Below, piece by piece: positions 8,951-45,776 of a stretch of 64,000 nucleotides of DNA. Source of the stretch: Acidithiobacillus ferrianus (GTDB taxonomy: Bacteria > Pseudomonadota > Gammaproteobacteria > Acidithiobacillales > Acidithiobacillaceae); contig NZ_WNJL01000037.1 in NCBI RefSeq assembly GCF_010378095.1, positions 186,001 to 250,000 on the forward strand, in the 5' to 3' direction. Each line of letters opens with the position of its first letter. The first letter of the stretch is position 1. A program made the position numbers and the translations under genes. The notes below the pieces were generated by a model, which ran no database searches, was not told the origin of the DNA, and worked only from the letters and a program-made list of their open reading frames with translations.

Positions 8951-9442
8951 TCAGCGATAAGCACGATCAGCGTCACGGTCGGCGGCCAGTTCCGCCTCCA
9001 GGCGATCACCGTTAGCCAGCAACAGGTCTTTGGTGTAAATCAGATCATTGCGAATTTCACCGTGATAAGACAGCACCCGGCTCTCGACAATGGAATCCAC
9101 CGGACAGGATTCTTCACAAAGTCCGCAAAAAATACACTTGCCGAGGTCAATATCATAGCGGGTCGTCCGCCGTGTTCCATCGCTACGCTCTTCGCTTTCG
9201 ATGGTAATGGCCAGAGCGGGACACACGGCCTCACAAAGCTTGCAGGCGATGCAGCGCTCCTCGCCGTTCTCATAGCGGCGCAGGGCATGCAAACCCCGGA
9301 AACGCGGGGATTGCGGCGTCTGCTCCTCGGGATATTGCACGGTGATCTTCCGTGCAAAGAAGTAGCGACCGGTGAGTTGCATACCACGCAGCATCTCGGT
9401 CAGAAAAAAGGTGCTAAACCATTGCTTGGGGCGAAATTGCAT
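8951..9442 (-). CDS. nuoI: NADH-quinone oxidoreductase subunit I (two [4Fe-4S])
   Basis: TYKY-type ferredoxin subunit of the peripheral arm, 163 residues. Two CxxCxxCxxxCP motifs bind clusters N6a and N6b: Cys64/67/70/74 and Cys103/106/109/113. It passes electrons from NuoG toward NuoB. The ATG at 9442 is preceded by GAGGAG at proper spacing; the upstream extension of the reading frame is not family-like and was dropped. It lies 10 bases after nuoH. Confidence 0.97.
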
Positions 9443-9452
9443 GTTGTTCTCC

Positions 9453-10478
9453 TCAGCGCAGAATGGCACGTAAGGGCGTTTCCAGAGCAACGCCGACCAC
9501 CACAATCCAGGCAATAGTTACCGGGATGAACACTTTCCAGCCCAGCCGCATGATCTGGTCATAGCGGTACCGGGGAAAAGTGGCACGAATCCACAAAAAC
9601 ACGTAGAGCAAAAAAGCCGTTTTTAGCAACAGCCAAACTATTCCGGGAATCCAGATGAGCAAGGGTGTATTGATCGGCGCATACCAGCCGCCGAGAAAGA
9701 GCACCGTCGTCAGCAAGGAAACAAAAATCATATTCGCATATTCAGCGAGGAAAAACAGCGCGAAGGCCATTCCCGAATATTCCACATGGAACCCCGCCAC
9801 AATTTCCGACTCGCCTTCCGCCACATCGAAAGGCGCACGGTTGGTTTCGGCTATGCCGGAAATGAAGTACACCAGAAAAAACGGAAACAACGGCAGCCAG
9901 TACCAGGACCAGAAACCGCCACCCGCTTGCGCTTCAACAATCTTGGTCAGGTTCAGGGTTTGTGCCACCATCAGCACCCCCACCAGGGCAAAACCCATGG
10001 CGATCTCATAAGCCACCAACTGTGCTGCCGCACGCATGGCTCCCAGAAAGGCGTATTTGGAATTGGACGCCCAACCCGCGACGATGATGCCGTATACGCC
10101 CAGACCGGCAATGGCCAGCACGTAGAGCAATCCGGCATTCATATTGGAGATGGCCACACCCGGACCGAAAGGAATAGCCGCCCAGACCAACAACGCCGGC
10201 ACAAAAGCGAGCACCGGTGCCGCCAAAAACAGAAAACGATTGGCATTGGTAGGAATAATCACTTCCTTGAACATCAGTTTGATCGCATCCGCGATCGGCT
10301 GCAGCGAACCCCTGAAGCCCACCCGGTTGGGGCCCAGACGCACCTGTATGTAGCCAATCACCTTGCGTTCGGCCAGCGTCAGGTAAGCCACGCCCAAAAG
10401 TAGCGGCACCACGACGATGATGATCTTGATCAGTGACCACAGGACCGCCCACCATGCCGTATTCTGAAAATCATGCAT
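9453..10478 (-). CDS. nuoH: NADH-quinone oxidoreductase subunit H
   Basis: Membrane subunit forming the quinone chamber and linking the two arms of complex I, 341 residues and eight or so helices. Signatures are [11 protein letters not shown] and Gly-Pro-Asn-Arg-Val-Gly, then the acidic loop [16 protein letters not shown]. The reading frame is open far upstream into nuoG, but the family N-terminus begins at the ATG at 10478, which has a GGGGGCGGAG just before it. It lies 11 bases after the nuoG stop. Confidence 0.96.
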
Positions 10479-30676: not shown

Positions 30677-32251
30677 ATGCCGCGCGGACCAGCCAAGAAG
30701 AAAACCGAAGACACCAGCCAGAGCCTCGAATCCAAGCTCTGGGCCACCGCCGACAAGTTGCGCGGGCACCTGGACGCCGCCGACTACAAGCATGTGGTAT
30801 TGGGCCTCATTTTCCTGAAGTACATCTCGGATCGCTTCGCCCAAAGGCATGCAGAAATCGTCCGGGAAGAAGCGGGTACTTACGCAGCCGAAGATCGGGA
30901 CGAATACACGGCGGAAGGCGTGTTCTGGGTACCCTTATCGGGCCGCTGGGACAGGGTACAGGCCGCCGCCAAACAGCCGGACATCGGCAAGCGCATCGAC
31001 AATGCCATGACCGAGATCGAGCGGGAAAACCCCCATCTGAAAAACATCCTGCCCAAGGGTTATGCCCGTCCCACACTGGATCAGCGCCGCCTGGGTGAAC
31101 TGGTGGACCTCATCGGTACCATTGGCTTAGGCACGGCGGAACATCAGGCCCGCGACACCCTGGGCCGCGTCTATGAGTATTTTCTGGGCATGTTCGCCAG
31201 CGCGGAAGGCAAGCGTGGCGGCGAATTCTACACCCCGGCATCGGTGGTCAGAACCTTGGTCACCATGCTGGCCCCCTACAAGGGACGCATCTATGACCCC
31301 TGCTGCGGGTCCGGCGGCATGTTCGTACAAAGCGAAAAGTTCATCGAAGCCCATGGCGGCAAAGTGGGCGACATCAGCGTCTATGGGGAGGAATCCAACC
31401 CCAACACCTGGAAGCTGGCCCTCATGAATCTGGCCATTCGCGGCATCGAGGCCGACCTGGGGCCGGAAGCGGCGGACACCTTTCATAAAGACCTGCATCC
31501 CGATCTGCGGGCGGATTACATTCTCGCCAACCCGCCCTTCAACATATCCGATTGGGGCGGCGACCTGCTGCGGGATGACAAACGCTGGCAGTACGGGATA
31601 CCGCCCACCGGCAACGCCAACTTCGCCTGGGTGCAACACATGGTCCATCACCTGGCCCCCTACGGCATCGCGGGCTTCGTGTTGGCCAATGGTTCCATGT
31701 CCTCCAACACCAGCGGCGAGGGCGAAATCCGCAAGAACCTCATCGAAGCGGATCTGGTGGACTGCATGGTGGCCATGCCGGGCCAGCTTTTCTACAGCAC
31801 CCAGATTCCCGTCTGCCTGTGGTTCCTGGCAAAGAACCGGGATGACGGACGCGGCATGGTTGGCAAGGAACTGTTTGAACGCACCGGCGAAGTACTGTTC
31901 ATCGATGCCCGCAACATGGGTTTCATGGCCGACCGCACCCACCGGGAACTGAGCGACGAGGACATCCAGAAGATCGCCGACACCTACCACAACTGGCGCG
32001 GTGATGGGGACGGGGAATACGCGGATATTCCCGGATTCTGCAAGGCCGCCAGTCTTGATGAAATCCGCAAGAACGGCCACGTCCTGACACCAGGGCGCTA
32101 TGTGGGGGCTGCCGCCAAGGATGACGATGATGAACCCTTTGAAGAAAAGATGGCACGGTTGACCAAAGACCTATCGGAACAGTTGGCGGAAGGACAGCGG
32201 CTGGAAGACGAGATGCTGAAGAACTTTCGGGTGTTGGGGTATGAGTTATGA
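30677..32251 (+). CDS. hsdM: Type I restriction-modification, DNA methyltransferase subunit
   Basis: N6-adenine methyltransferase of 524 residues. An N-terminal helical HsdM domain (about 15-150) precedes the methylase domain with the SAM motif Asp-Pro-Cys-Cys-Gly-Ser-Gly-Gly (207-214) and the catalytic Asn-Pro-Pro-Phe (285-288). With HsdS it protects host DNA; with HsdR it forms the restriction complex. AAGGGG precedes the ATG. Its last 15 codons are duplicated 1.7 kb downstream, see the repeat entries. hsdS and hsdR follow after an inserted toxin-antitoxin array. Confidence 0.97.
32197..32244 (+). repeat. 48-bp direct repeat, copy 1 (hsdM tail)
   Basis: Bases 32197-32244, the end of the hsdM coding region, recur without mismatch at 33923-33970. 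The two copies bracket the BrnTA, zinc-finger antitoxin and ORF6N genes. Confidence 0.95.
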
Positions 32252-33269: not shown

Positions 33270-33977
33270 ATGATTTGCGAACTGGATACCGTCATTCCAA
33301 GGTCACAATTGGTGGACTTAAACGAGGAGCCTGACTTGAGATCACAATCCGTGACCTCAAGTGCCCATGGCGGGAGAAGGTATTCTCCCTACGCCTTCAC
33401 CGAACGGAGCGTGGCCATGCTCTCGGCGGTGCTGCGCAGCGAAACTGCCGTCCAGATCAGCATCCACATCATCAATGCCTTTGTCGCCATGCGCCGGTTC
33501 ATGGCCGCCAATGGCGGCCTGCTCCAACGCATGGACTCGCTGGAAAAACGGCAAATCCACCACGAGATCAACACCGACGACCGTTTCAACAAGGTATTCG
33601 ACGCGCTCGAAAGCAAAAGCCTGAATCCCACCCAGGGCATCTTTTTTGACGGCCAGATATTCGACGCCTATGTGTTCGTCAATGACCTGCTGCGCCAGGC
33701 GAAACAATCCATCGTCCTGATCGACAACTACATCGACGACAGTGTGCTGATGCAACTGGCCAAGCGCCGCCAAGGCGTCAGCGCCACCATCCTGACCAAA
33801 ACCATCAGCAAGCAGATTGCCCAAGACCTGAAAAAGCACAACGCCCAGTATCCGCCGATCCAGATACATGAGTTTGGCGACAGCCACGACCGTTTTCTGA
33901 TTCTTGTTGATTGCGGAAGACGGCGGCTGGAAGACGAGATGCTGAAGAACTTTCGGGTGTTGGGGTATGAACTGTGA
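33270..33977 (+). pseudogene. ORF6N-domain DNA-binding protein, truncated and fused to HsdM tail
   Basis: A 235-residue open frame. Residues about 24-75 match the back half of the ORF6N domain (Tyr-Ala-Phe-Thr-Glu...Val-Ala-Met-Leu-Ser-Ala-Val-Leu); the usual first 50 residues of that domain are missing. The middle (about 120-215, Phe-Phe-Asp-Gly-Gln-Ile-Phe-Asp-Ala-Tyr and Leu-Ile-Asp-Asn-Tyr-Ile-Asp-Asp) is the C-terminal domain common in such proteins, ending at Asp-Arg-Phe-Leu-Ile. The last 18 residues are the HsdM C-terminus, joined by the 48-bp repeat. ORF6N/RhuM-like genes often sit in type I R-M operons. This copy is probably non-functional. Confidence 0.7.
33923..33970 (+). repeat. 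48-bp direct repeat, copy 2
   Basis: Exact copy of 32197-32244 (end of hsdM), here fused in frame to the ORF6N-type gene. It marks the right junction of the inserted or rearranged segment. Confidence 0.95.
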
Positions 33978-35287: not shown

Positions 35288-35366
35288 ATGCTCATCAGAG
35301 GCGCTACATTAAACTACCTCGGTGCAGCGCAGAGCGTTGCTGCCCAGAATCTCAAGGGGCTGGGGC

Positions 35367-36692
35367 ATGGTGGGTAAATGGCGTGAAGTAACACTTGGTG
35401 AGATTGCTGAGATTTACGATGGGCCGCACGCAACCCCCAAAAAAACCGATGATGGTCCAATTTTTCTCGGAATATCAAATATTTCCAGAGGCCGGCTTGA
35501 TCTATCCAATACCGAGCATGTTTCTGAGAACGATTTTCATCGTTGGACCCGTCGGGTTGAACCCGAAGAAGGCGACGTAGTGTTCTCATATGAGACCCGC
35601 CTCGGTGAGGCGGCACGGGTTCCTCATGGTTTGCGATGTTGCCTCGGCCGCCGCATGGGCTTGCTTCGCGCTCGCGGTGGCCTGGTAGACCCACGTTTTT
35701 TACTGTACGCATACCTCGGTCCAGATTTTCAGGACACACTATACTCACGCACTGTCCACGGCAGCACAGTTGATCGCATTCCTTTAATCAACATGCCGCA
35801 TTTCCCAATAGTCATCCCTGGAAACATTCAAGAACAACGTCGCATCGCCCACATCCTCGGCACCTTGGACGACAGGATCGAGAACAACCGCAAAACGGCG
35901 AAGACCCTGGAAGCCATGGCGCAGGCCATCTTCAAGTCCTGGTTCGTGGACTTCGACCCGGTACGCGCCAAGATGGCCGGGGAATCCCAGGAAAGCATCT
36001 GCAAGCGGCTGAAGCTCACGCCTGAGATTCTGGACCTGTTCCCGGATAGGCTGGTGGATTCGGAATTGGGGGAAATTCCTGAAGGGTGGCGGGTGGGGAA
36101 GCTTGGTGATGTCGCGGAACATCCCCGCCGGAGCGTGCAACCAAACAGTATCGAACCGGATAGGGCCTACATCGCATTGGAACACATGCCAAAGCGGTCT
36201 ATCGCGCTCTTCGACTGGGGGATAGCCAATGGACTGGAAAGCAACAAGTTCGAGTTCAAGAAGGGCGAGATCCTATTCGGCAAGCTCCGGCCATACTTTC
36301 ACAAGGTCGGCATTGCGCCATTGGACGGCGTGTGCTCTACAGACATCGTGGTCGTGGCGCCGCGAAGCGCTGACTGGTTCGCCTTTGTTCTGGCTCATGT
36401 GTCGAGTAACAACTTAGTCGAATACGCGAACGTTGGCTCGACCGGAACGAAGATGCCGAGGACCAGTTGGACTGACATGGCGCGCTACAACATCGCGACA
36501 CCCCCAAAAACTGTCGCCAGGGTATTCAGCGAGATGTTGCTCCCATCCATTGACCGCATCATCGTCGGTATTCATGAATCCCGCACCCTCGCCGCCATCC
36601 GCGACGACTTGCTGCCCAAACTGATTTCGGGAGAAATCCGAGTCCCAGATGTGCAGACAATGGTTCATACAGCCATCGGAACCATTCAATGA
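35367..36692 (+). CDS. hsdS: Type I restriction-modification, specificity subunit
   Basis: Specificity subunit of 441 residues with two target-recognition domains: one from about residue 5 (Trp-Arg-Glu-Val-Thr-Leu-Gly-Glu-Ile) to 165, then a long conserved helix (Gln-Glu-Gln-Arg-Arg-Ile-Ala-His-Ile-Leu-Gly-Thr-Leu-Asp-Asp), and a second domain from Ile-Pro-Glu-Gly-Trp-Arg-Val-Gly near residue 240, ending with another helix. It sets the split recognition sequence, which cannot be read from the protein. I chose the ATG at 35367. It overlaps the following PIN-domain gene by 4 bases. Confidence 0.94.
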   Translation: MVGKWREVTLGEIAEIYDGPHATPKKTDDGPIFLGISNISRGRLDLSNTEHVSENDFHRWTRRVEPEEGDVVFSYETRLGEAARVPHGLRCCLGRRMGLLRARGGLVDPRFLLYAYLGPDFQDTLYSRTVHGSTVDRIPLINMPHFPIVIPGNIQEQRRIAHILGTLDDRIENNRKTAKTLEAMAQAIFKSWFVDFDPVRAKMAGESQESICKRLKLTPEILDLFPDRLVDSELGEIPEGWRVGKLGDVAEHPRRSVQPNSIEPDRAYIALEHMPKRSIALFDWGIANGLESNKFEFKKGEILFGKLRPYFHKVGIAPLDGVCSTDIVVVAPRSADWFAFVLAHVSSNNLVEYANVGSTGTKMPRTSWTDMARYNIATPPKTVARVFSEMLLPSIDRIIVGIHESRTLAAIRDDLLPKLISGEIRVPDVQTMVHTAIGTIQ

Positions 36693-37576
36693 AGACCAAA
36701 ACTTGGCAGCTTCAAACCCACATCCGATCCGAGATGCTGGGCGATCTGCGCAAGATTGAGGGCATGAAGAACCTTCTCGGCCCCCTGGCGCAGTTCATTG
36801 TGGTTGTGGATGCCAATATCATTCTGGGTGATCTGATCTGGCTTGTTAGCAAACGGAAAAATCCAGAGGCAGCCACCGAACTTGTGGAGTGCATCAAGGC
36901 TGGAACCATCGTAGCCTATGTCGCCCGCCCGGTGTTGGCGGAAGTGGATGAGCACATTTCGACGATAGCCGCGACCAAAAAACTGCCTGAAGATGCGTTG
37001 CGGCAAGAGTGGAAGATCTATCGCAAGATCATCAATGTCAGAACTCCCAGGAGGCATCTGGTTGACCGCTACAAGGGAGGTCAAGACCCGGACGACGCGC
37101 CAACCATTGCACTCGCAAAAATGATTCGGGCAGATGGCATTCTGAGCAAGGACAGCGACATCGTGGCGATGGGCGGCCTTGCGATCGAGTTGGACTTTAC
37201 GGATCGCGCAAGAGACTATTCACGAAAAACCGCTATAGCGGTGACTATTCGTTGCTCAGGCGGAATCGCGCTGATCGTCTCTTGGGCATCAATTGAAATC
37301 GTCCTAAAGTCGGCAGCAGGTTTTGTCGCGTGGTTTAGAAAATTGCCTGCGTGTGTCCAGATCGTCCTTTTTGTCGCAGTCGTCGCTGTCGCGTCGAACA
37401 AGAATGTACAAGAGTGCGTGATCGCCATGATTGCGCCAATCAGGACCGCAATATCCGGTCACTGGCCAGAGGTGCTTGACTGGCTGGCGAGCGTAGGCAC
37501 AACGCTTGCCGAAAACACGCTTGCGCCGCCCGTCCCAACTTTCAAAACGCAGAAAAGTCGCAGAGCATCTCCATGA
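36689..37576 (+). CDS. PIN-domain protein with C-terminal membrane segments
   Basis: A 295-residue protein. The first 175 residues form a PIN-type nuclease fold: Val-Val-Val-Asp-Ala-Asn-Ile-Ile-Leu with Asp41, Glu85 in Val-Leu-Ala-Glu-Val-Asp, acidic residues in Asp-Pro-Asp-Asp (133-136), and Ser-Lys-Asp-Ser-Asp (Asp155, Asp157). Two hydrophobic stretches follow (about 183-206 and 222-237), predicted membrane helices, and then a soluble tail. It overlaps hsdS and hsdR by 4 bases at each end (ATGA), so it is co-translated with the R-M system. A PIN RNase tethered to membrane inside a type I operon is unusual. It may be an accessory defence or suicide component; its target is unknown. Confidence 0.8.
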
Positions 37577-40500
37577 ACGAATCCACCATCGAACACCACG
37601 CCATCGCCCTCTTCCGCGAACTGGGCTACACCTACGCATTCGGCCCCAACATCGGCCCGGATAGCGACCATCCTGAACGCGAAGACTACACCGAAGCCCT
37701 GCTGCTGGAACGCCTGCGCACCGCCATCCATACGCTCAATCCCGCCGTCCCTAAAGACATCCGCGACGAGGCCTTGCGCATGGTGCGGGATGCCGCCCAC
37801 GGCGGGTTGATGACTCAGAATAACCTCATCCAGCGCATGCTGGTGGAAGGCGTGCGGGTGGCGCATCAGGTGGACGGCGAAGAGCGCGGCATCATCGTCC
37901 GCCTGCTGGATTACGATCACCCCGAAAAGAACGATTTTCTGGTGGCCAACCAGTACACCGTCATTCATGACCGTATCAACCGCCGAGCAGACCTGGTCGT
38001 CTTTATCAACGGCATGCCCCTGGGCCTCTTTGAACTGAAAAACATGGCCGATGCCAATGCTACCGTGCGCAAAGCCTGGAACCAGTTGCAGACCTATCAG
38101 GCGGATATCCCGAACCTCATGGCCTACAACGCCGTGCTGGTCATCAGTGATGGCCTTAAGGCCGCCATGGGCTGCCTGGGCGCCCCCTACGAACGCTTCC
38201 TGCCGTGGAAGACCATCGACGGTCAGGAACTCATGCAAAAGGGGGATGACCCCTTACGCTTCCTGATTCACGGTGTTTTTGAACCCGGCCGCTTTCTGGA
38301 CCTGCTGCGGTACTTCGTCGCCTTTGAAGACGATGGCCGCAAACTCAGCAAGAAGATCGCCGCCTATCATCAGTTCCACGCCGCCCACAAAGCCCTGCTG
38401 ACCATCCTGGCCGCTGCCGGCATCGGCGGCGACCGCCGGGGTGGTGTGGTCTGGCATACCCAGGGGTCCGGCAAGAGCCTCACCATGCTGTTCTTCGCGG
38501 GTATGCTCATCCAGCATCCCGCACTGGAAAACCCCACGATCCTCATGCTCACCGACCGCACGAACCTGGACACCCAGTTGTTCGATACCTTTGCGGCGGG
38601 CAGCCAGCTTTTACGGCAAGACCCGCAACAGGCCGACAGCGTCAGTGATTTGCGGGAATTGCTGCAAAGGGCGTCGGGGGGTGTGGTCTTCAGCACCATC
38701 CAGAAATTCCAGAAAGACCGCCACGAACCCCAGGGCAAGCACCCGGTATTGTCCGACCGAAAGAACATCATCGTCATGGTGGATGAGGCCCAGCGCAGCC
38801 AGTACGAAATTCTGGACGGCTATGCCGCCAATCTGCGGGCGGCCTTGCCCAACGCGACCTTCGTGGCCTTCACCGGCACCCCACTGGAACTGGATGACCG
38901 GGATACGCGGGTGGTGTTCGGCGATTACATCGACATCTACGACATCCAGCGGGCCGTCGAGGACGGCGCCACCGTGCCCATCTATTACGAAAGTCGCCTA
39001 GTGCGCCTCAACCTGCCGGAAGACCAGCGGCCCCTCATCGACAGCACCTTTGAGGAAATCACCGAAGACGACGAGCAGGATAGCAAGGAACGCCTCAAAA
39101 CCCGCTGGGCGCAACTGGAAGCCCTGGTTGGCGCCCCCAAGCGAGTGGAACAGATTGCCGCCGATATGCTGGACCATTGGGAAAAGCGCAAGAGCATCCT
39201 GTCCGGCAAGGCCATGATCGTCGCCATGAGCCGCCGCATCGCCGTGGAACTCTATGATGCCATCATCCGTATTCATCCCGACTGGCACAGCGAAGACGAC
39301 ATGCAAGGCCGCATCAAGGTGGTCATGACGGGTTCGGCCAGCGATCCCATCGAATGGAAGCCGCACATCCGCAGCAAGGCGGGCAATGAAGCCATTGCCG
39401 ACCGCCTGAAAGACCCGGATGATCCGTTAGAAATCGTCATCGTGCGAGATATGTGGCTGACGGGCTTCGATGCCCCGGCCCTGAATACGCTGTACGTGGA
39501 CAAACCCATGCGCGGGCACACCCTCATGCAGGCCATCGCCCGCGTCAACCGGGTCTTCACCAACAAGTCCGGCGGCCTGGTAGTGGACTACATCGGCATC
39601 GCCCAGGATCTGAAAAACGCCATCGCCACTTACACCCGGTCCGGGGGCAAAGGGAACCCGGCGGAAACCGTAGAGGCCGCCATCAAGGTGCTGCTGGAAA
39701 AACTGGACATCTGCCGCAGTATGTTCCACGGCTGTGACTATCAGGATTATCTGACCGGCGACGGATCGGAAAAGGTGGCCACCCTGCGCAAGGGCACCGA
39801 GTTCATCCTGTCCCAGGAACTCACGGAAGAAGGCATCAAGCGCCGTTTCCGAAATGCCACATCGGGGCTCAGGAAGGCCGCCACGCTGGCGGCGGGCGAC
39901 GATGTGGTGGAACGTTGCCGCACCGAGATCGTTTTCTTCCTGAGTGTCCGCGCCACTCTGGACAAGACCAGCGACGCGGAATCCCTGGTGGAAGAGCAGG
40001 AATACGCCATTCGCCAGTTGATTGACCAGTCCATCGCCCCGGAAGGCGTGGTGGACCTGTATGCGGTGGCGGGGCTGCCCAAAAGCGAAATATCCCTGCT
40101 GTCCGATGAATTCATCCACCAGATCGAGGCCATGCCCGAAAAGAATCTGGCGCTGGAAATGCTCAGAAGGCTGCTACAGGACAAGGTCCGCAAGGAAGGC
40201 AAAGGCAACCTGATCCAGAGCAAAGCCTTTTCGGAAAAGCTGGAAGAAGCCCTGCGCAAGTACCATAACAGGTCGGTGGATACGGTCGAGGTGATGCAGG
40301 AACTCATTGAACTGGCGAAAGCCTTGCAGGCGCTGGATCAGCGTCATGCGGAACTGGGCCTCAGCAAAGAGGAAGCGGCGTTTTATGACGCCCTGGCGAC
40401 CAACGATTCCGCCGTGCAGGCCATGGGCGACGATGCTCTGAAAATGATCGCCAAGGAAGTGGCCGATACCGTGCGCCAGAACACGCGCATCGACTGGTCC

Positions 40501-40632
40501 ATCCGGGAACAGGCGCGGGCGCATTTGCGGCGCATGGTGAAACGGGTCTTACGGAAACACGGCTACCCACCCGACATGCAGGAAGGGGCGGTGAATATGG
40601 TCATTGAGCAGGCTGAGGGGTTGGTGGCATAG
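37573..40632 (+). CDS. hsdR: Type I restriction-modification, restriction subunit
   Basis: Motor and endonuclease subunit of 1019 residues. The N-terminal nuclease domain has Asp140 and Glu154-Leu-Lys156, a PD-(D/E)xK site. The helicase domains follow with Walker A Gly-Ser-Gly-Lys-Ser (298-302), DEAD-like Asp-Glu-Ala-Gln-Arg and the Phe-Thr-Gly-Thr-Pro motif, then helicase C with Gly-Phe-Asp-Ala-Pro and Gln-Ala-Ile-Ala-Arg-Val-Asn-Arg. The helical C-terminal part binds HsdM. It appears intact. Its end abuts the convergent membrane-protein gene without a gap. Confidence 0.96.
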
Positions 40633-41025
40633 TTATCTATGTGGGTGCCAAACGAGGAGATGAGGATCACAAAATAACGCGACAAATCCAATAATATATA
40701 TTGCAAAAGTTAGCCAGTAGAGAGGGTTGTTTTTTAACATTGGCCAAAATCCAAAATACTTTCTTTCAAGCCTCTTTTGAATTTTAAGTATATAGACATT
40801 ATCGCTTTTATTAGCAACCTTCCGGATAACTCTTATTATCTTTGGAAATTTATCTCTTCCGTATTGCATATAGCATAGCCACACTAAAAACGAAAGCAGG
40901 CTAAGGAGCACTGATTGTGCCGCCAAAGCCGCTATTTCAGACAAAAAGCCAATCGTTATTGCTGAATAATTAAGAAACTGAGACCACTCTGCAAACTGTT
41001 TTTCGATTTCTGCATCAGTATTCAT
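40633..41025 (-). CDS. Small membrane protein linked to KAP NTPase
   Basis: A 130-residue protein with hydrophobic helices near residues 22-35, 37-54 and 102-118, separated by a basic cytoplasmic-looking segment (Lys-Ile-Ile-Arg-Val-Ile-Arg-Lys...Gln-Lys-Arg-Leu-Glu-Arg-Lys). It follows the KAP NTPase gene by 72 bases on the same strand and shares its A+T-rich composition, so the two were probably acquired together. I do not recognise the family. Pairing of an NTPase with a membrane protein is a common theme in phage-defence systems, in which the membrane protein is the effector; that is inference here. Confidence 0.7.
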   Translation of the reverse strand: MNTDAEIEKQFAEWSQFLNYSAITIGFLSEIAALAAQSVLLSLLSFLVWLCYMQYGRDKFPKIIRVIRKVANKSDNVYILKIQKRLERKYFGFWPMLKNNPLYWLTFAIYIIGFVALFCDPHLLVWHPHR

Positions 41026-41097
41026 AACTGCCTCAAAGGATCTATACCAGCCAACATACGACCACCACAGCTCACCTTACGTTATGGGCAAACGACG

Positions 41098-42975
41098 TTA
41101 CGTCGCATATTTCTCGAAGGCTTTACCGATTGCCTCTACTATACGTTTTTTCATGTGTAAAGAGAGCCGCTTCGGTACAGAAGCCTCCTCTATCTCAAAG
41201 CGCAATGACTTGCGAACAGAATCGAGCGTGTCCTTTTCCTCCCCAAAGATATCCCCCATATGTTGATATGGCGACTTAGTATAACGAGAAAGGATCATTT
41301 CCGCGAAAGCCCGTTTAACAGCGTTACTCATTTTTTCTATGCCAGACAAAATCTCCTTTGTTTCCAGATATCCAAAAAACACGTTCCGGTTCCATTCAGA
41401 TTGCAGTCCAAAGGTTTGATATAAGGTTTTCATGTCTGAGCTAGTGTAAAGCTCTTTCCAGTCATCTTGAGCCCGCTGTTTCAAACGAACTTCGTCAATT
41501 AAAGGTGTGTTTAACTGCGCGTATTCAAAAACCTGCTTTGCAATCCCGTCAAGGTTGGGGTATTGAAAGGGGATACGGCTTAACTCATTCTGGTCAATGG
41601 AAGTTCTCTGGGCTTCTAAAATCCGATCTATAGCTTGCTTCGCGCATGTTAACAGATCCTGTTCGCTGTAGACGTTCGTCAATCCTTCTTTTAAGAAATA
41701 CTCTAGAAAACTAGCCATATGTATAATACCAGTAACGGATACATTATCTTCTCGCAATTGCCTGAGCGACTCGTCAAGTGCAGTGCTAAAGCTATCGTCA
41801 TCCAGAAGACTGTAGTCTGAAAATAGCATCCTTAACTGATCCTGTTCCGGAAATGTCTTCTCGACGAAGTCATGAAATTCAATATTTATATCTTTTTCAA
41901 AAACCACGCCATGATAAACGAACAGTGCGGCTATTTTTGATAAGTATCCAGATTGCCGGAAAGAGGAGAAATTTTCCCGTATGCGACTGTATATATTGCG
42001 TTTATCACGGATATCATTGCGCCACGTGTTTTCTTCCCCTGCTCCACTCGTGCGTTGCATGAGCGACGACAGATCAAACGCCAACGTCGCCTGGCCTTGT
42101 ATGGTTTCAATGATTTCTTCCATACCAATCTGATGATTCTTATGCTCTATCAGATAAGCTAAAACACAGCAGGATACGTTTTCAATAAATGCATCATAGT
42201 GAATTTCATTTCTTATGTGGCCAGACTTGACCGCCAAGCGCTTAACCAAATGGTATGCAGTGATCAAGATTCTGGCGTTTGCCTCATAATCTTTCGGTAG
42301 CATGTTAAAGGTATTTCTTTCCGCTACAATGACGCGCGAGGCAGTCTTCTCAGCTTCATCACATGAGATACCAGATAGATAGGCCAGTATTTGATCCAGA
42401 TCAAATTCGTATTTATAGGTGTATCTAACCGTCTTTTCTTTTGCTATGCGATATACTGTTTCACTCGGATCTGACGTTGAATCTTCTGATTTGTCAATTT
42501 CTTCTTCATTGCAAACGATTATACATTTCACATGGCGCTGAGAACAATACCTGTCGATATACCCTATTAGCTCAGATGTATCTATCAATTTAGAAGCACG
42601 TTCTAAGTCGTCAAAGATTATGACGATATCGCGGACTGGCATCGAAAGCTGCGGCAAAACAAGGTCAATCTGGTGTAGACTGGCTGCTGTTTTGACGGCG
42701 GTTCGCGCAAGTGCCGAACCTATTTTGAATATTGAAGATTTAACATAAGGGTATACCGCCTGAATCACCAAATGATCAATCTCTTCATTTTTGGTAATCC
42801 CGAACAGCGACACATAGGCCGTCTTTTTCCCTCTTTCTTCCAGCAATCTTTTGATTTTGTTGTTGGCAAAATACGTTTTGCCAGAGCCCCAGGGACCGGT
42901 AACCATTATTGCATAATCCGACTCATTGTCCGCGCAGTAGGATTCGATGCCTTCCAGTATTTCATCATTAGTCAT
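41098..42975 (-). CDS. KAP-family P-loop NTPase
   Basis: A 625-residue protein. Walker A is Gly-Pro-Trp-Gly-Ser-Gly-Lys-Thr (27-34) and Walker B is Ile-Val-Ile-Ile-Phe-Asp-Asp-Leu-Glu-Arg (117-126); the Gly-x-Trp-Gly-x-Gly-Lys and Asp-Asp-Leu-(Asp/Glu)-Arg pattern marks the KAP group, which includes the phage-exclusion protein PifA. The C-terminal 350 residues are helical with no recognised effector domain. The gene is distinctly A+T-rich and uses rare-looking codons compared with the backbone. No membrane helix is evident in it, unlike some KAP proteins; that role may fall to the small protein encoded next. A defence ATPase is the likeliest role. Confidence 0.82.
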   Translation of the reverse strand: MTNDEILEGIESYCADNESDYAIMVTGPWGSGKTYFANNKIKRLLEERGKKTAYVSLFGITKNEEIDHLVIQAVYPYVKSSIFKIGSALARTAVKTAASLHQIDLVLPQLSMPVRDIVIIFDDLERASKLIDTSELIGYIDRYCSQRHVKCIIVCNEEEIDKSEDSTSDPSETVYRIAKEKTVRYTYKYEFDLDQILAYLSGISCDEAEKTASRVIVAERNTFNMLPKDYEANARILITAYHLVKRLAVKSGHIRNEIHYDAFIENVSCCVLAYLIEHKNHQIGMEEIIETIQGQATLAFDLSSLMQRTSGAGEENTWRNDIRDKRNIYSRIRENFSSFRQSGYLSKIAALFVYHGVVFEKDINIEFHDFVEKTFPEQDQLRMLFSDYSLLDDDSFSTALDESLRQLREDNVSVTGIIHMASFLEYFLKEGLTNVYSEQDLLTCAKQAIDRILEAQRTSIDQNELSRIPFQYPNLDGIAKQVFEYAQLNTPLIDEVRLKQRAQDDWKELYTSSDMKTLYQTFGLQSEWNRNVFFGYLETKEILSGIEKMSNAVKRAFAEMILSRYTKSPYQHMGDIFGEEKDTLDSVRKSLRFEIEEASVPKRLSLHMKKRIVEAIGKAFEKYAT

Positions 42976-43085
42976 ATTGATTGCATCACCTTCAAATCTG
43001 TTGATGGTGGTGGTTAATAATAGCGCACCTGCTTAGCCCCCTAGTTCTAAGATTGGATGAGGCGGAATGTCGCATCCACCTATCG

Positions 43086-44057
43086 CTATTTACCCATAGT
43101 CTTCTTTATGGCTGCCGTTAGTTTGGATTCTGCTAGACGGCAGATTTCCGCTGGTGTCGCCCTCTCATTCTTCTTTGTCGGCGTGCTCTTCTTGGGCAGG
43201 TTGGACGCAGGCCCTGGGGAGAACGTCGAATTTGTGCCCTTGCACGCCGCCTTTGCATCGGGGAAGTGCGCAACCATGAGGTCGGTAGCTTCCGCAAGGA
43301 TCGCCGCGCACACATCAAGCGCTTGGGCGATGTAGGTTCGGTCTGTATTGTTTTCGAGGCCGGTTCCGCGCCCGTTGGGTTCGATGCGATAAAAAGACAA
43401 CGGTAAAATGTGGATATGCTGCGACCAAAGGTCGTAGAGGGCATTAAATTGGCCTTTATCAAAGCCCACCTTGGCCAACATCATGTCTCGGTTGTCGATT
43501 ATCGGAAATCGACCTTTAAGGCACTGCTTCTGCACATCAGTGGGGAGAGTTGCAAAAAACTCATTATTTTTCAAACGCCCCTGGAGCTCGGTGCGCTGCT
43601 GTTCAAACTCCACTATATTGTCCGTTATACCCAAATTCTTGTGCAGATCGATGCGGCGGGTGCAGTCGTTGAGATGCATCACGTTGATGCGGGTTTTCAG
43701 TTCAGCCTCTGACTCAGGCGTTTCAATCAAATAGCTGAATAGCAAGTAACCATCAAGTAGCCCACGGGCATGTCCCGCCACAGCGGCAAACTGCCAATCA
43801 TCGAAGTCCGAACGGATCCAGCGCGACAACGGGGTTGCTCGAATCATGGCAATCCCGGTGCCACACATGCGGGTAAAGACTCGCGAGGCATAGCCTACAT
43901 TCGAGGACACGAAACGGTTCGCCGTAGCCTGACTAACGGCGGTAGCTTCGCATATTGCTGCGTCAAACTTCTGCAGGGCAATCGTGTAGGCATCTCTATC
44001 AACGGTTGGTTTTTTCGTCTCAGTCACGGTCAAACTCATCAGCAATCTTGTCTTCAT
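43086..44057 (-). CDS. Hypothetical protein, possibly DUF5677-like
   Basis: A soluble protein of about 323 residues from the ATG at 44057. The centre, with Ala-Val-Ala-Gly-His-Ala-Arg-Gly-Leu-Leu-Asp-Gly-Tyr-Leu-Leu-Phe-Ser-Tyr, resembles the helical core of DUF5677-like proteins, and an aromatic/His-rich stretch follows (Tyr-Asp-Leu-Trp-Ser-Gln-His-Ile-His). The C-terminal 60 residues are Lys/Pro/Thr-rich and probably disordered. The frame is open to 44177, with TTG and ATG starts there directly after the neighbouring stop; none of the starts has a good ribosome-binding site. It is encoded 110 bases upstream of the KAP gene on the same strand and could belong to the same system. Confidence 0.55.
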   Translation of the reverse strand: MKTRLLMSLTVTETKKPTVDRDAYTIALQKFDAAICEATAVSQATANRFVSSNVGYASRVFTRMCGTGIAMIRATPLSRWIRSDFDDWQFAAVAGHARGLLDGYLLFSYLIETPESEAELKTRINVMHLNDCTRRIDLHKNLGITDNIVEFEQQRTELQGRLKNNEFFATLPTDVQKQCLKGRFPIIDNRDMMLAKVGFDKGQFNALYDLWSQHIHILPLSFYRIEPNGRGTGLENNTDRTYIAQALDVCAAILAEATDLMVAHFPDAKAACKGTNSTFSPGPASNLPKKSTPTKKNERATPAEICRLAESKLTAAIKKTMGK

Positions 44058-44177
44058 TAATACTGCACTCTGGGGGCGCAGTACCCTAGTGATAGTAAAG
44101 TTAAGACTTCCAGAACGCACCCCAACATCGAATTTCCAGTTACCATCCGAGTTCAGCCATCCGGCCATAACCGCCAA

Positions 44178-44420
44178 TTAGACCAGAACAGCCACCTTGG
44201 CATAGCTTTGAAAGAAATCATCCTGTAGCAACGGAAATCCCGGCCCATCCAGACGGATACACCAGACAATACCCTCGCGGTCTTCATAGAGCATCCCCAC
44301 CATGTCGGGGGTGTGCGTCGTGACGATCTCAGGAATACCCATGGAACGGGATTCTCGATGACTTAATGGCAAAATGGGCAATGCATACAGCAGGTTCTTA
44401 TCCAAGGTGGTGACCAACAC
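44178..44420 (-). CDS. Small hypothetical protein
   Basis: Eighty codons from GTG at 44420, or 54 from an ATG at 44342. The product has Pro-Glu-Ile-Val-Thr-Thr-His-Thr-Pro and Ile-Val-Trp-Cys-Ile-Arg-Leu-Asp-Gly-Pro-Gly-Phe. I recognise no family. It abuts the next gene on the same strand without a gap, which argues for a real or formerly real gene, but it may be a fragment. Confidence 0.35.
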   Translation of the reverse strand: MLVTTLDKNLLYALPILPLSHRESRSMGIPEIVTTHTPDMVGMLYEDREGIVWCIRLDGPGFPLLQDDFFQSYAKVAVLV

Positions 44421-44559
44421 ATTCCCGGTCCATTATCCGGTGCTCACTTGCCGCTTGATGACGGCACCAACTCCATGCAGTTATTTCTGGTCGACGTAGC
44501 CAGACTTTGTATCAGTGAGATAATTGAAAAAAGTTCTATAGACATCGGGAAGTGGCCGG

Positions 44560-44913
44560 TTACTGAGGTTCCACCACAACCGCCGTTCCATACGCCGTGA
44601 CTTCATTCATGGCCTGCCCTTGTCCAGCGTCAAACTCACCGGAATCAAAACGCATGCCCAGGACGGCATTGGCGCCGAGGGACCGCGCATGCTCGGCCAG
44701 TTGTTCCAGGGCATCATCCCGCGTCTGGGTAATCATTTTGAGATATCCAGCCTGCTTCCCGCCGAAGATCGCGCGGACGCCACCCAGGAAATTGCCGACG
44801 ATATTGCGGGATCGGACACCCGTGCCGTAGACCGGCCCAATGACACGGACCACACGCATACCGGGGCAGTCGTTGATGGTGAGGATGAGGACGGGTTTTT
44901 GTTCTGCTGACAT
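44560..44913 (-). CDS. YbjQ/UPF0145 family protein
   Basis: A 117-residue protein of the YbjQ family (putative heavy-metal-binding, forms pentameric rings in known structures). The family pattern is Gly-x-Val-x-Gly...Arg-Asp-Ala, then Leu-Gly-Ala-Asn-Ala-Val-Leu-Gly-Met-Arg-Phe-Asp, and a C-terminal Tyr-Gly-Thr-Ala-Val. Function is not established. It starts at the ATG at 44913. It looks more like backbone than its island neighbours in composition. Confidence 0.85.
   Translation of the reverse strand: MSAEQKPVLILTINDCPGMRVVRVIGPVYGTGVRSRNIVGNFLGGVRAIFGGKQAGYLKMITQTRDDALEQLAEHARSLGANAVLGMRFDSGEFDAGQGQAMNEVTAYGTAVVVEPQ

Positions 44914-45699: not shown

Positions 45700-45776
<77 letters not shown>

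Follow-up and report, generated by a model that had tools for sequence, protein, structure and literature searches.

Among the described phage defense systems closest to the locus reported here, Tmn is a KAP NTPase that carries two transmembrane domains in the same protein and is reported to inhibit several phages (PMC11846954). The work on qatABCD describes QatA as a DNA-binding protein that forms a hepta- or octamer and is dispensable for part of the defense (PMC13279940), and a third paper describes one subtype of RADAR as SLATT associated (PMC7699616). The two genes analyzed here lie in a 64,000-nucleotide stretch of an Acidithiobacillus ferrianus contig, hereafter called the window (G000 among our genomes), and encode a KAP NTPase and a small membrane protein. 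Like Tmn, the pair brings together a KAP NTPase and membrane helices; unlike Tmn, with which it was compared by description, the NTPase itself lacks helices (maximum hydropathy mean, 1.46), and these are in a separate protein.

The NTPase matches over its full length (3.6e-56; residues 2 to 607 of 625, profile positions 5 to 602 of 624) the profile PDLC05031 of PDC-S49, a candidate family in PADLOC-DB 2.0.0. By its sequence it is a member of this phage defense candidate family, an assignment made on the full-length match; PADLOC gives no curated cutoff here. The S in PDC-S49 we take to stand for single gene. The window differs from the other PDC-S49 loci examined in adding the membrane gene. 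In the literature collection searched, no paper naming PDC-S49 was found.

The named systems fared differently. The F-plasmid protein PifA has the KAP domain (PF07693) in common with the NTPase, but the best local alignment of the two is just a 27-residue stretch around Walker A (E = 0.008). No PifA profile was matched at an E value of ≤10, while the F-plasmid PifA used as a control reached 2.9e-290, and a special kinship to PifA beyond the KAP domain, as the mention of PifA in the earlier note might suggest, was not borne out. The NTPase likewise matched no QatA profile at an E value of ≤10, although the PifA control reaches the QatA profiles. Among nine proteins of the locus, with the best 25 PADLOC matches considered for hsdM and hsdS, there was no match to QatB, QatC, or QatD, no QueC-like match, and no match to the RADAR profiles RdrA and RdrB. 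The AAA+ fold that RdrA has in common with the N-terminal part of the NTPase is not specific. The profile check proposed in the earlier note thus went against RADAR, PifA, and QatA and returned the candidate family PDC-S49 for the NTPase.

Locus organization and composition

The NTPase gene (41098..42975, minus strand; 625 amino acids [aa]) and the membrane-protein gene (40633..41025, minus strand; 130 aa) are separated by 72 bp and are convergent with hsdR (37573..40632, plus strand), which was matched together with hsdM (30677-32251) and hsdS (35322-36692) as part of one type I restriction-modification (R-M) operon. On the same strand, 110 bp upstream of the NTPase gene, is an open reading frame (ORF) of 363 aa with an uncertain start (43086..44177, minus strand), a possible third gene or separate cargo, which has sub-threshold Pfam matches only (HTH_Tnp_Mu_1, E = 0.009; DUF5677, E = 0.07). 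It is followed by an 80-aa ORF (44178..44420, minus strand) and by ybjQ (44560..44913, minus strand), beyond which lies a tRNA-Met gene (45700..45776, minus strand). The stretch between hsdR and ybjQ (40633..44559; 3,927 bp) has a G+C content of 0.45.

Both genes of the pair are A+T rich against their background. Their G+C contents are 0.42 for the NTPase gene and 0.36 for the membrane gene versus 0.576 for the window, and their third-position values are 0.44 and 0.34, with 0.60 for the 363-aa ORF; hsdR has 0.60 overall and 0.78 at third positions. The 625-aa and 130-aa ORFs, their A+T-rich composition, and the type I R-M neighbor had all been read from the DNA in the earlier note, and each was found again. 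Terminator-like sites number 7 in the region versus 4.0 expected, one of them (41184-41169) in the 3'-terminal part of the NTPase gene, and promoter-like sites are not in excess (5 versus 6.6 in shuffled controls). No direct repeats of ≥25 bp were found at the slot borders around the cassette.

A variable cargo slot between hsdR and ybjQ

The firmest new result is that the interval from hsdR, the near border, to ybjQ, the far border, is a variable cargo slot in Acidithiobacillus. When hsdR was used to search 17 genomes of the genus, 13 gave a match at an E value of ≤1e-50; the best match was 85 to 97% identical in 10 genomes besides the window's own, the others having remoter hsdR-like proteins. 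The loci of these 10 relatives were compared with the window (11 hsdR orthologues), hsdR being matched at the contig level in two pieces in G007 and by its second half only in G015 and G009. In 9 of the 10 relatives, conservation breaks off at most 7 bp from the final base of hsdR; in G015, it extends 28 bp past that base. It resumes at ybjQ. Downstream of hsdR, ybjQ or a piece of it is present in 9 of the 11 loci, window included; none was found before the contig end in G012 and G007, and the evidence for G015 is a 37-bp match that is absent from the protein-level search. The hsdR-ybjQ interval is 3,927 bp in the window, 5,632 bp in G011, 2,027 bp in G015, 1,468 bp in G008, 1,448 bp in G013 (A. 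ferrivorans), 1,117 bp in G014, 962 bp in G003, 381 bp in G005, and 14 bp in G009. In G009, ybjQ lacks its N-terminal half, a separate break on the far side of the gene, so that the junction of 14 bp could reflect either an empty site or a loss that came later.

When the eight intervals of more than 100 bp were each compared with all the others, only two shared pieces emerged. The piece shared by the window and G005 lies near ybjQ (117 bp at 75% identity; 92 aa at 53% when translated), and the 80-aa ORF in this common DNA is probably the remnant of an older slot occupant. The piece shared with G015 is the 28 bp that follow hsdR, which correspond to the last codons and the stop of the membrane gene on the minus strand of G015; the simplest reading of this match would be that an ancestor of G015 had the membrane gene in the slot and that it was later replaced by other genes.

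The occupants of the slot are diverse. Six proteins from five genomes (G013, G015, G008, G014, and G003) were scanned. G013 has a PD-(D/E)XK protein of PDC-S26, one occupant in G015 matches PDC-S32, G008 has a protein with a sub-threshold HEPN match, G014 has a 260-aa protein with no family match, and G003 has a protein with weak outer-membrane matches. PADLOC candidate families were therefore matched by two of the six other-occupant proteins, the window NTPase being a third. A PADLOC match alone is weak proof, since 2 of 8 other window proteins used as a control also match PADLOC profiles, presumably through sigma-factor and primase domains. The defense-associated setting suggested in the earlier note is favored by the variable slot, by the PDC-S49 NTPase, and by these two occupants; co-occurrence of the two genes in unrelated genomes, by which that note proposed to check the pair, found no support in the 103 loci searched.

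A second copy of ybjQ, with an altered C terminus, was observed in A. ferrivorans 57 bp upstream of a PDC-S49 gene (L035, 1579-3852), as if cargo and border might have moved together. PDC-S49 genes thus meet ybjQ at two different loci.

The NTPase and the distribution of PDC-S49

Walker A (GPWGSGKT, residues 27 to 34) and Walker B (VIIFDDLER, residues 118 to 126) are both intact, and Pfam KAP_NTPase (PF07693) is matched with 43 bits, its gathering score being 20, which agrees with the earlier reading of the protein as a KAP-type NTPase. By the 19-residue Kyte-Doolittle mean, the protein has no transmembrane-like stretch, in line with the absence of membrane helices stated in the earlier note. 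The N-terminal part has an AAA+-like fold and the C-terminal half is helical. No solved structure was matched at an E value of ≤0.01 in a sequence search with the NTPase profile. Plasmid and phage collections gave 53 plasmid and 8 phage records, which mostly align with the N-terminal KAP part and none of which covers >80% of the query; no match was found in viral contigs.

The PDLC05031 profile matched 24 of 398 genomes of the phylum at an E value of ≤1e-3. At ≤1e-30, in genome samples that overlap, it matched 4 of 78 in the order of G196, 4 of 385 in the class of G332, and 3 of 369 in the window's own class. Altogether, 17 loci in 16 genomes were obtained at this cutoff, including two copies in A. 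ferrivorans that came from a protein search and one of which was checked against PADLOC. Of 14 named control genomes, one (Caulobacter vibrioides) matches at ≤1e-3 and none at ≤1e-30.

The neighbors of PDC-S49 genes are varied. In G180, the gene 1 bp downstream encodes a protein of 385 aa that matches DUF6161 and AbiZ, a PIN protein gene overlaps the PDC-S49 gene by 4 bp in G782, and a DUF805-type protein is encoded 83 bp upstream in G386 and G454 (Pfam match from the G386 copy). In G284, where the gene ends at the contig edge, the PDC-S49 protein has an N-terminal extension with two helices. A PDC-S19 gene is near the PDC-S49 gene in G939, and a PDC-S15 gene lies 1.8 kb away in G130; in A. 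ferrivorans, one copy is beside an Mrr/type IIG-like fragment and the other beside a PDC-S28-like helicase. No telling neighbor was found in G332, G430, or G917. In G372 (L040), the PDC-S49 gene overlaps a permease gene and one for a solute-binding protein, and an ABC ATPase is encoded next to them; the layout is similar in G196 (L039), where the solute-binding protein was confirmed, and in G321 (L041), where the likeness is by layout only and partly masked. These three loci look like solute-transporter operons, which is not a defense setting. They come from three genomes of one family and are an odd setting for a defense candidate.

A same-strand neighbor within 150 bp with at least two hydropathy peaks is present at 7 of 16 PDC-S49 loci (G000, G196, G372, G321, G180, G386, and G454), a tally in which G196, G372, and G321 are transporter-like, G386 and G454 belong to one genus and have near-identical loci, G284 has its helices fused, and G632 was omitted because a competing frame blurred the gene picture. 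For comparison, 12 of 54 ORFs in the window have at least two such peaks; these are plain counts, and no enrichment is claimed. The candidate outputs at these loci would be the three-helix orphan of the window, the AbiZ-like DUF6161 protein (G180), the PIN nuclease (G782), the fused helices (G284), and the DUF805 protein (G386 and G454). A general scheme in which PDC-S49 is a shared soluble NTPase sensor with interchangeable outputs, and the Acidithiobacillus R-M operon has a dedicated slot for swapping such modules, is in our estimate unlikely.

A contig search with the single NTPase protein retrieved no relatives, and one with an NTPase alignment retrieved at least 419, of which 80 were kept: the two A. 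ferrivorans loci and 78 others (L051-L128) listed as Clostridia, Clostridiales, Eubacteriales, Clostridium, or Bacillota. The 78 were treated as another KAP lineage because nearly all of them align in the N-terminal part only. Their NTPases are mostly about 650 aa long.

The orphan membrane protein

The 130-aa protein has two broad hydropathy peaks, at about residues 22 to 53 and 100 to 126. An AlphaFold2 model built from 7 sequences has a modest mean pLDDT of 67 (the other four models, 46 to 49) and places helices at residues 3 to 34, 39 to 58, 62 to 73, 77 to 91, 93 to 99, and 101 to 119. The long ones (3 to 34, 39 to 58, and 101 to 119) match the roughly three helices counted in the earlier note, and about three membrane passes would fit this modest-confidence model. 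Basic stretches face the cytoplasm under the positive-inside rule, and residues 57 to 98, with 13 Lys and Arg against 3 Asp and Glu, are therefore predicted to lie on the cytoplasmic side.

The protein is an orphan. No match was obtained at an E value of ≤1 in Pfam, NCBIfam, or PADLOC, nor was any found in the plasmid and phage collections, and three matches of its profile to solved structures (E = 0.38 to 0.97) were taken as chance. A protein search found 3 homologues, and a profile search among 5.8 billion proteins found 6: P0121, P0122, and P0123 are 98, 84, and 78% identical, and P0124 to P0126 are 40 to 45% identical. P0121 is marked as the cluster that the window itself encodes. Among the genomes of 96 relatives, the protein was found only in the window's own genome and in G021, and a profile search of 369 genomes of the class gave, besides the window, one match (E = 0.0018) that contains an internal stop and was taken as chance.

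Pairing of the two genes and alternative readings

Co-occurrence of the two genes was examined by searching with the membrane-protein profile in 103 loci, namely, the window, 14 loci (L035-L048), the 78 Clostridia-type KAP loci, and 10 further loci (L159-L168). Apart from the window, the only locus with a homologue was L037 of G021; the gene there (9123-9540) is split over two frames. It lies near ORFs that resemble integrases by eye. The NTPase had no match in the G021 genome. The earlier note had named rare co-occurrence of the homologues as grounds for refuting its two-gene proposal, and for this reason the strict form of that proposal is weakened; a lineage-specific pair is possible. Two observations concern the setting of the membrane gene elsewhere. 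The tail of the P0123 protein (MPPTPQPAQ) corresponds in 9 of 9 residues to the antisense of the 3' end of hsdR, and that of P0122 does so in 6 of 9, so the genes of both metagenomic homologues are, by this match, probably placed against the same hsdR. Moreover, the longest contig is 4,829 bp for both P0001 and P0121, which suggests that the two genes may share a contig. A dedicated system of two genes is thus far only plausible, with the pairing seen in this lineage alone, and the case for it is weaker than the earlier note hoped. The cassette itself is real and mobile and is probably defense cargo.

We tentatively favor, with a probability of roughly 0.4, the reading that the pair is horizontally exchanged cargo that most likely acts as an accessory module against phages (or plasmids) and as a backup to the type I R-M system. 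Counting against it are the absence of the membrane gene from the other PDC-S49 loci, its presence in G021 apart from the NTPase, the three transporter-like loci, the PADLOC matches of the control proteins, the terminator-like site in the NTPase gene, and the dispensability of QatA for part of the qatABCD defense. A real, if doubtful, competitor holds that the NTPase is a single-gene candidate defense protein and that the membrane gene is an independent neighbor in the same slot. PDC-S49 is a one-protein entry in PADLOC, and the two A. ferrivorans NTPases, which at 27 and 24% identity are the nearest relatives with a known setting, have neither a homologue of the membrane protein at their loci nor any same-strand membrane neighbor within 150 bp; G021, with its membrane gene near integrase-looking ORFs and no NTPase, points the same way. 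The probable position of the membrane gene against the same hsdR in the two metagenomic homologues, the contig size common to P0001 and P0121, and the A+T richness of both genes relative to their surroundings argue against such independence. That the unit has three genes, with the 363-aa ORF as the first, we consider very unlikely: all three lie within the slot on one strand with gaps of 110 and 72 bp, but the third-position G+C content sets the ORF apart from the other two genes, its start is uncertain, and no relative of it was detected in 13 Acidithiobacillaceae loci at an E value of ≤1.

It is also quite unlikely, though less so than the three-gene unit, that the NTPase serves in housekeeping or in a mobile element (in transport, DNA uptake, or plasmid upkeep) and that the slot collects any DNA. 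The transporter-like setting of L040, and similarly of L039 and L041, would fit such a role, as would slot occupants such as the outer-membrane-like protein and the unmatched ORFs. In the other KAP lineage, the five Clostridia-type loci viewed in detail look housekeeping-like, with neighbors that we take to be recD2-like upstream (4 of 5), comF-like upstream (4 of 5), and spoVT-like downstream (2 of 5). Against this reading, the slot adjoins an R-M operon on its 3' side, and at other loci PDC-S49 genes have candidate defense genes as neighbors, namely, the PDC-S19, PDC-S15, and AbiZ-like genes and, in A. ferrivorans, the Mrr/type IIG-like and PDC-S28-like ones.

Proposed mechanism and significance

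For the favored reading, an accessory module that backs up the R-M system, we infer a defense role, co-transcription, interaction, and oligomerization of the pair and an effector role for its membrane component, and we propose a mechanism by analogy with Tmn, QatA, and RADAR. The KAP NTPase would be an AAA+-like switch that forms an ATP-dependent oligomer once an infection cue, perhaps a phage protein or a nucleic acid, is encountered by its helical C-terminal half. This oligomer would then dock on the basic, predicted cytoplasmic stretch of the three-helix protein. Either the membrane would be opened or disturbed, whereupon the infected cell stops growing, or the oligomer would be held at the membrane by the three-helix protein and act on entering DNA. 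Overall, the membrane part of such a KAP NTPase would be encoded separately.

Should the module prove functional, PDC-S49 would gain a function, there would be an example of a KAP NTPase that receives its membrane part from a second gene, and the possible defense outputs would include one more family, that of the orphan membrane protein. Regardless of how the module functions, the hsdR-ybjQ slot marks a constant position in the genomes of Acidithiobacillus, which is used in bioleaching, and new candidate defense genes can be collected there through the comparison of a few genomes.

Additional features of the R-M operon

The last 59 bp of hsdM (32193-32251) are repeated with 93% identity 1,726 bp further on (33919-33977), where they form the C terminus of a PDC-S05-like ORF (33270-33977). 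The DNA between the repeats contains small ORFs that resemble toxin-antitoxin genes by eye, and insertions may have entered this R-M operon here as well, at a possible second site. Between hsdS and hsdR (36689-37576), a 295-aa PIN-domain protein with three hydropathy peaks is encoded.
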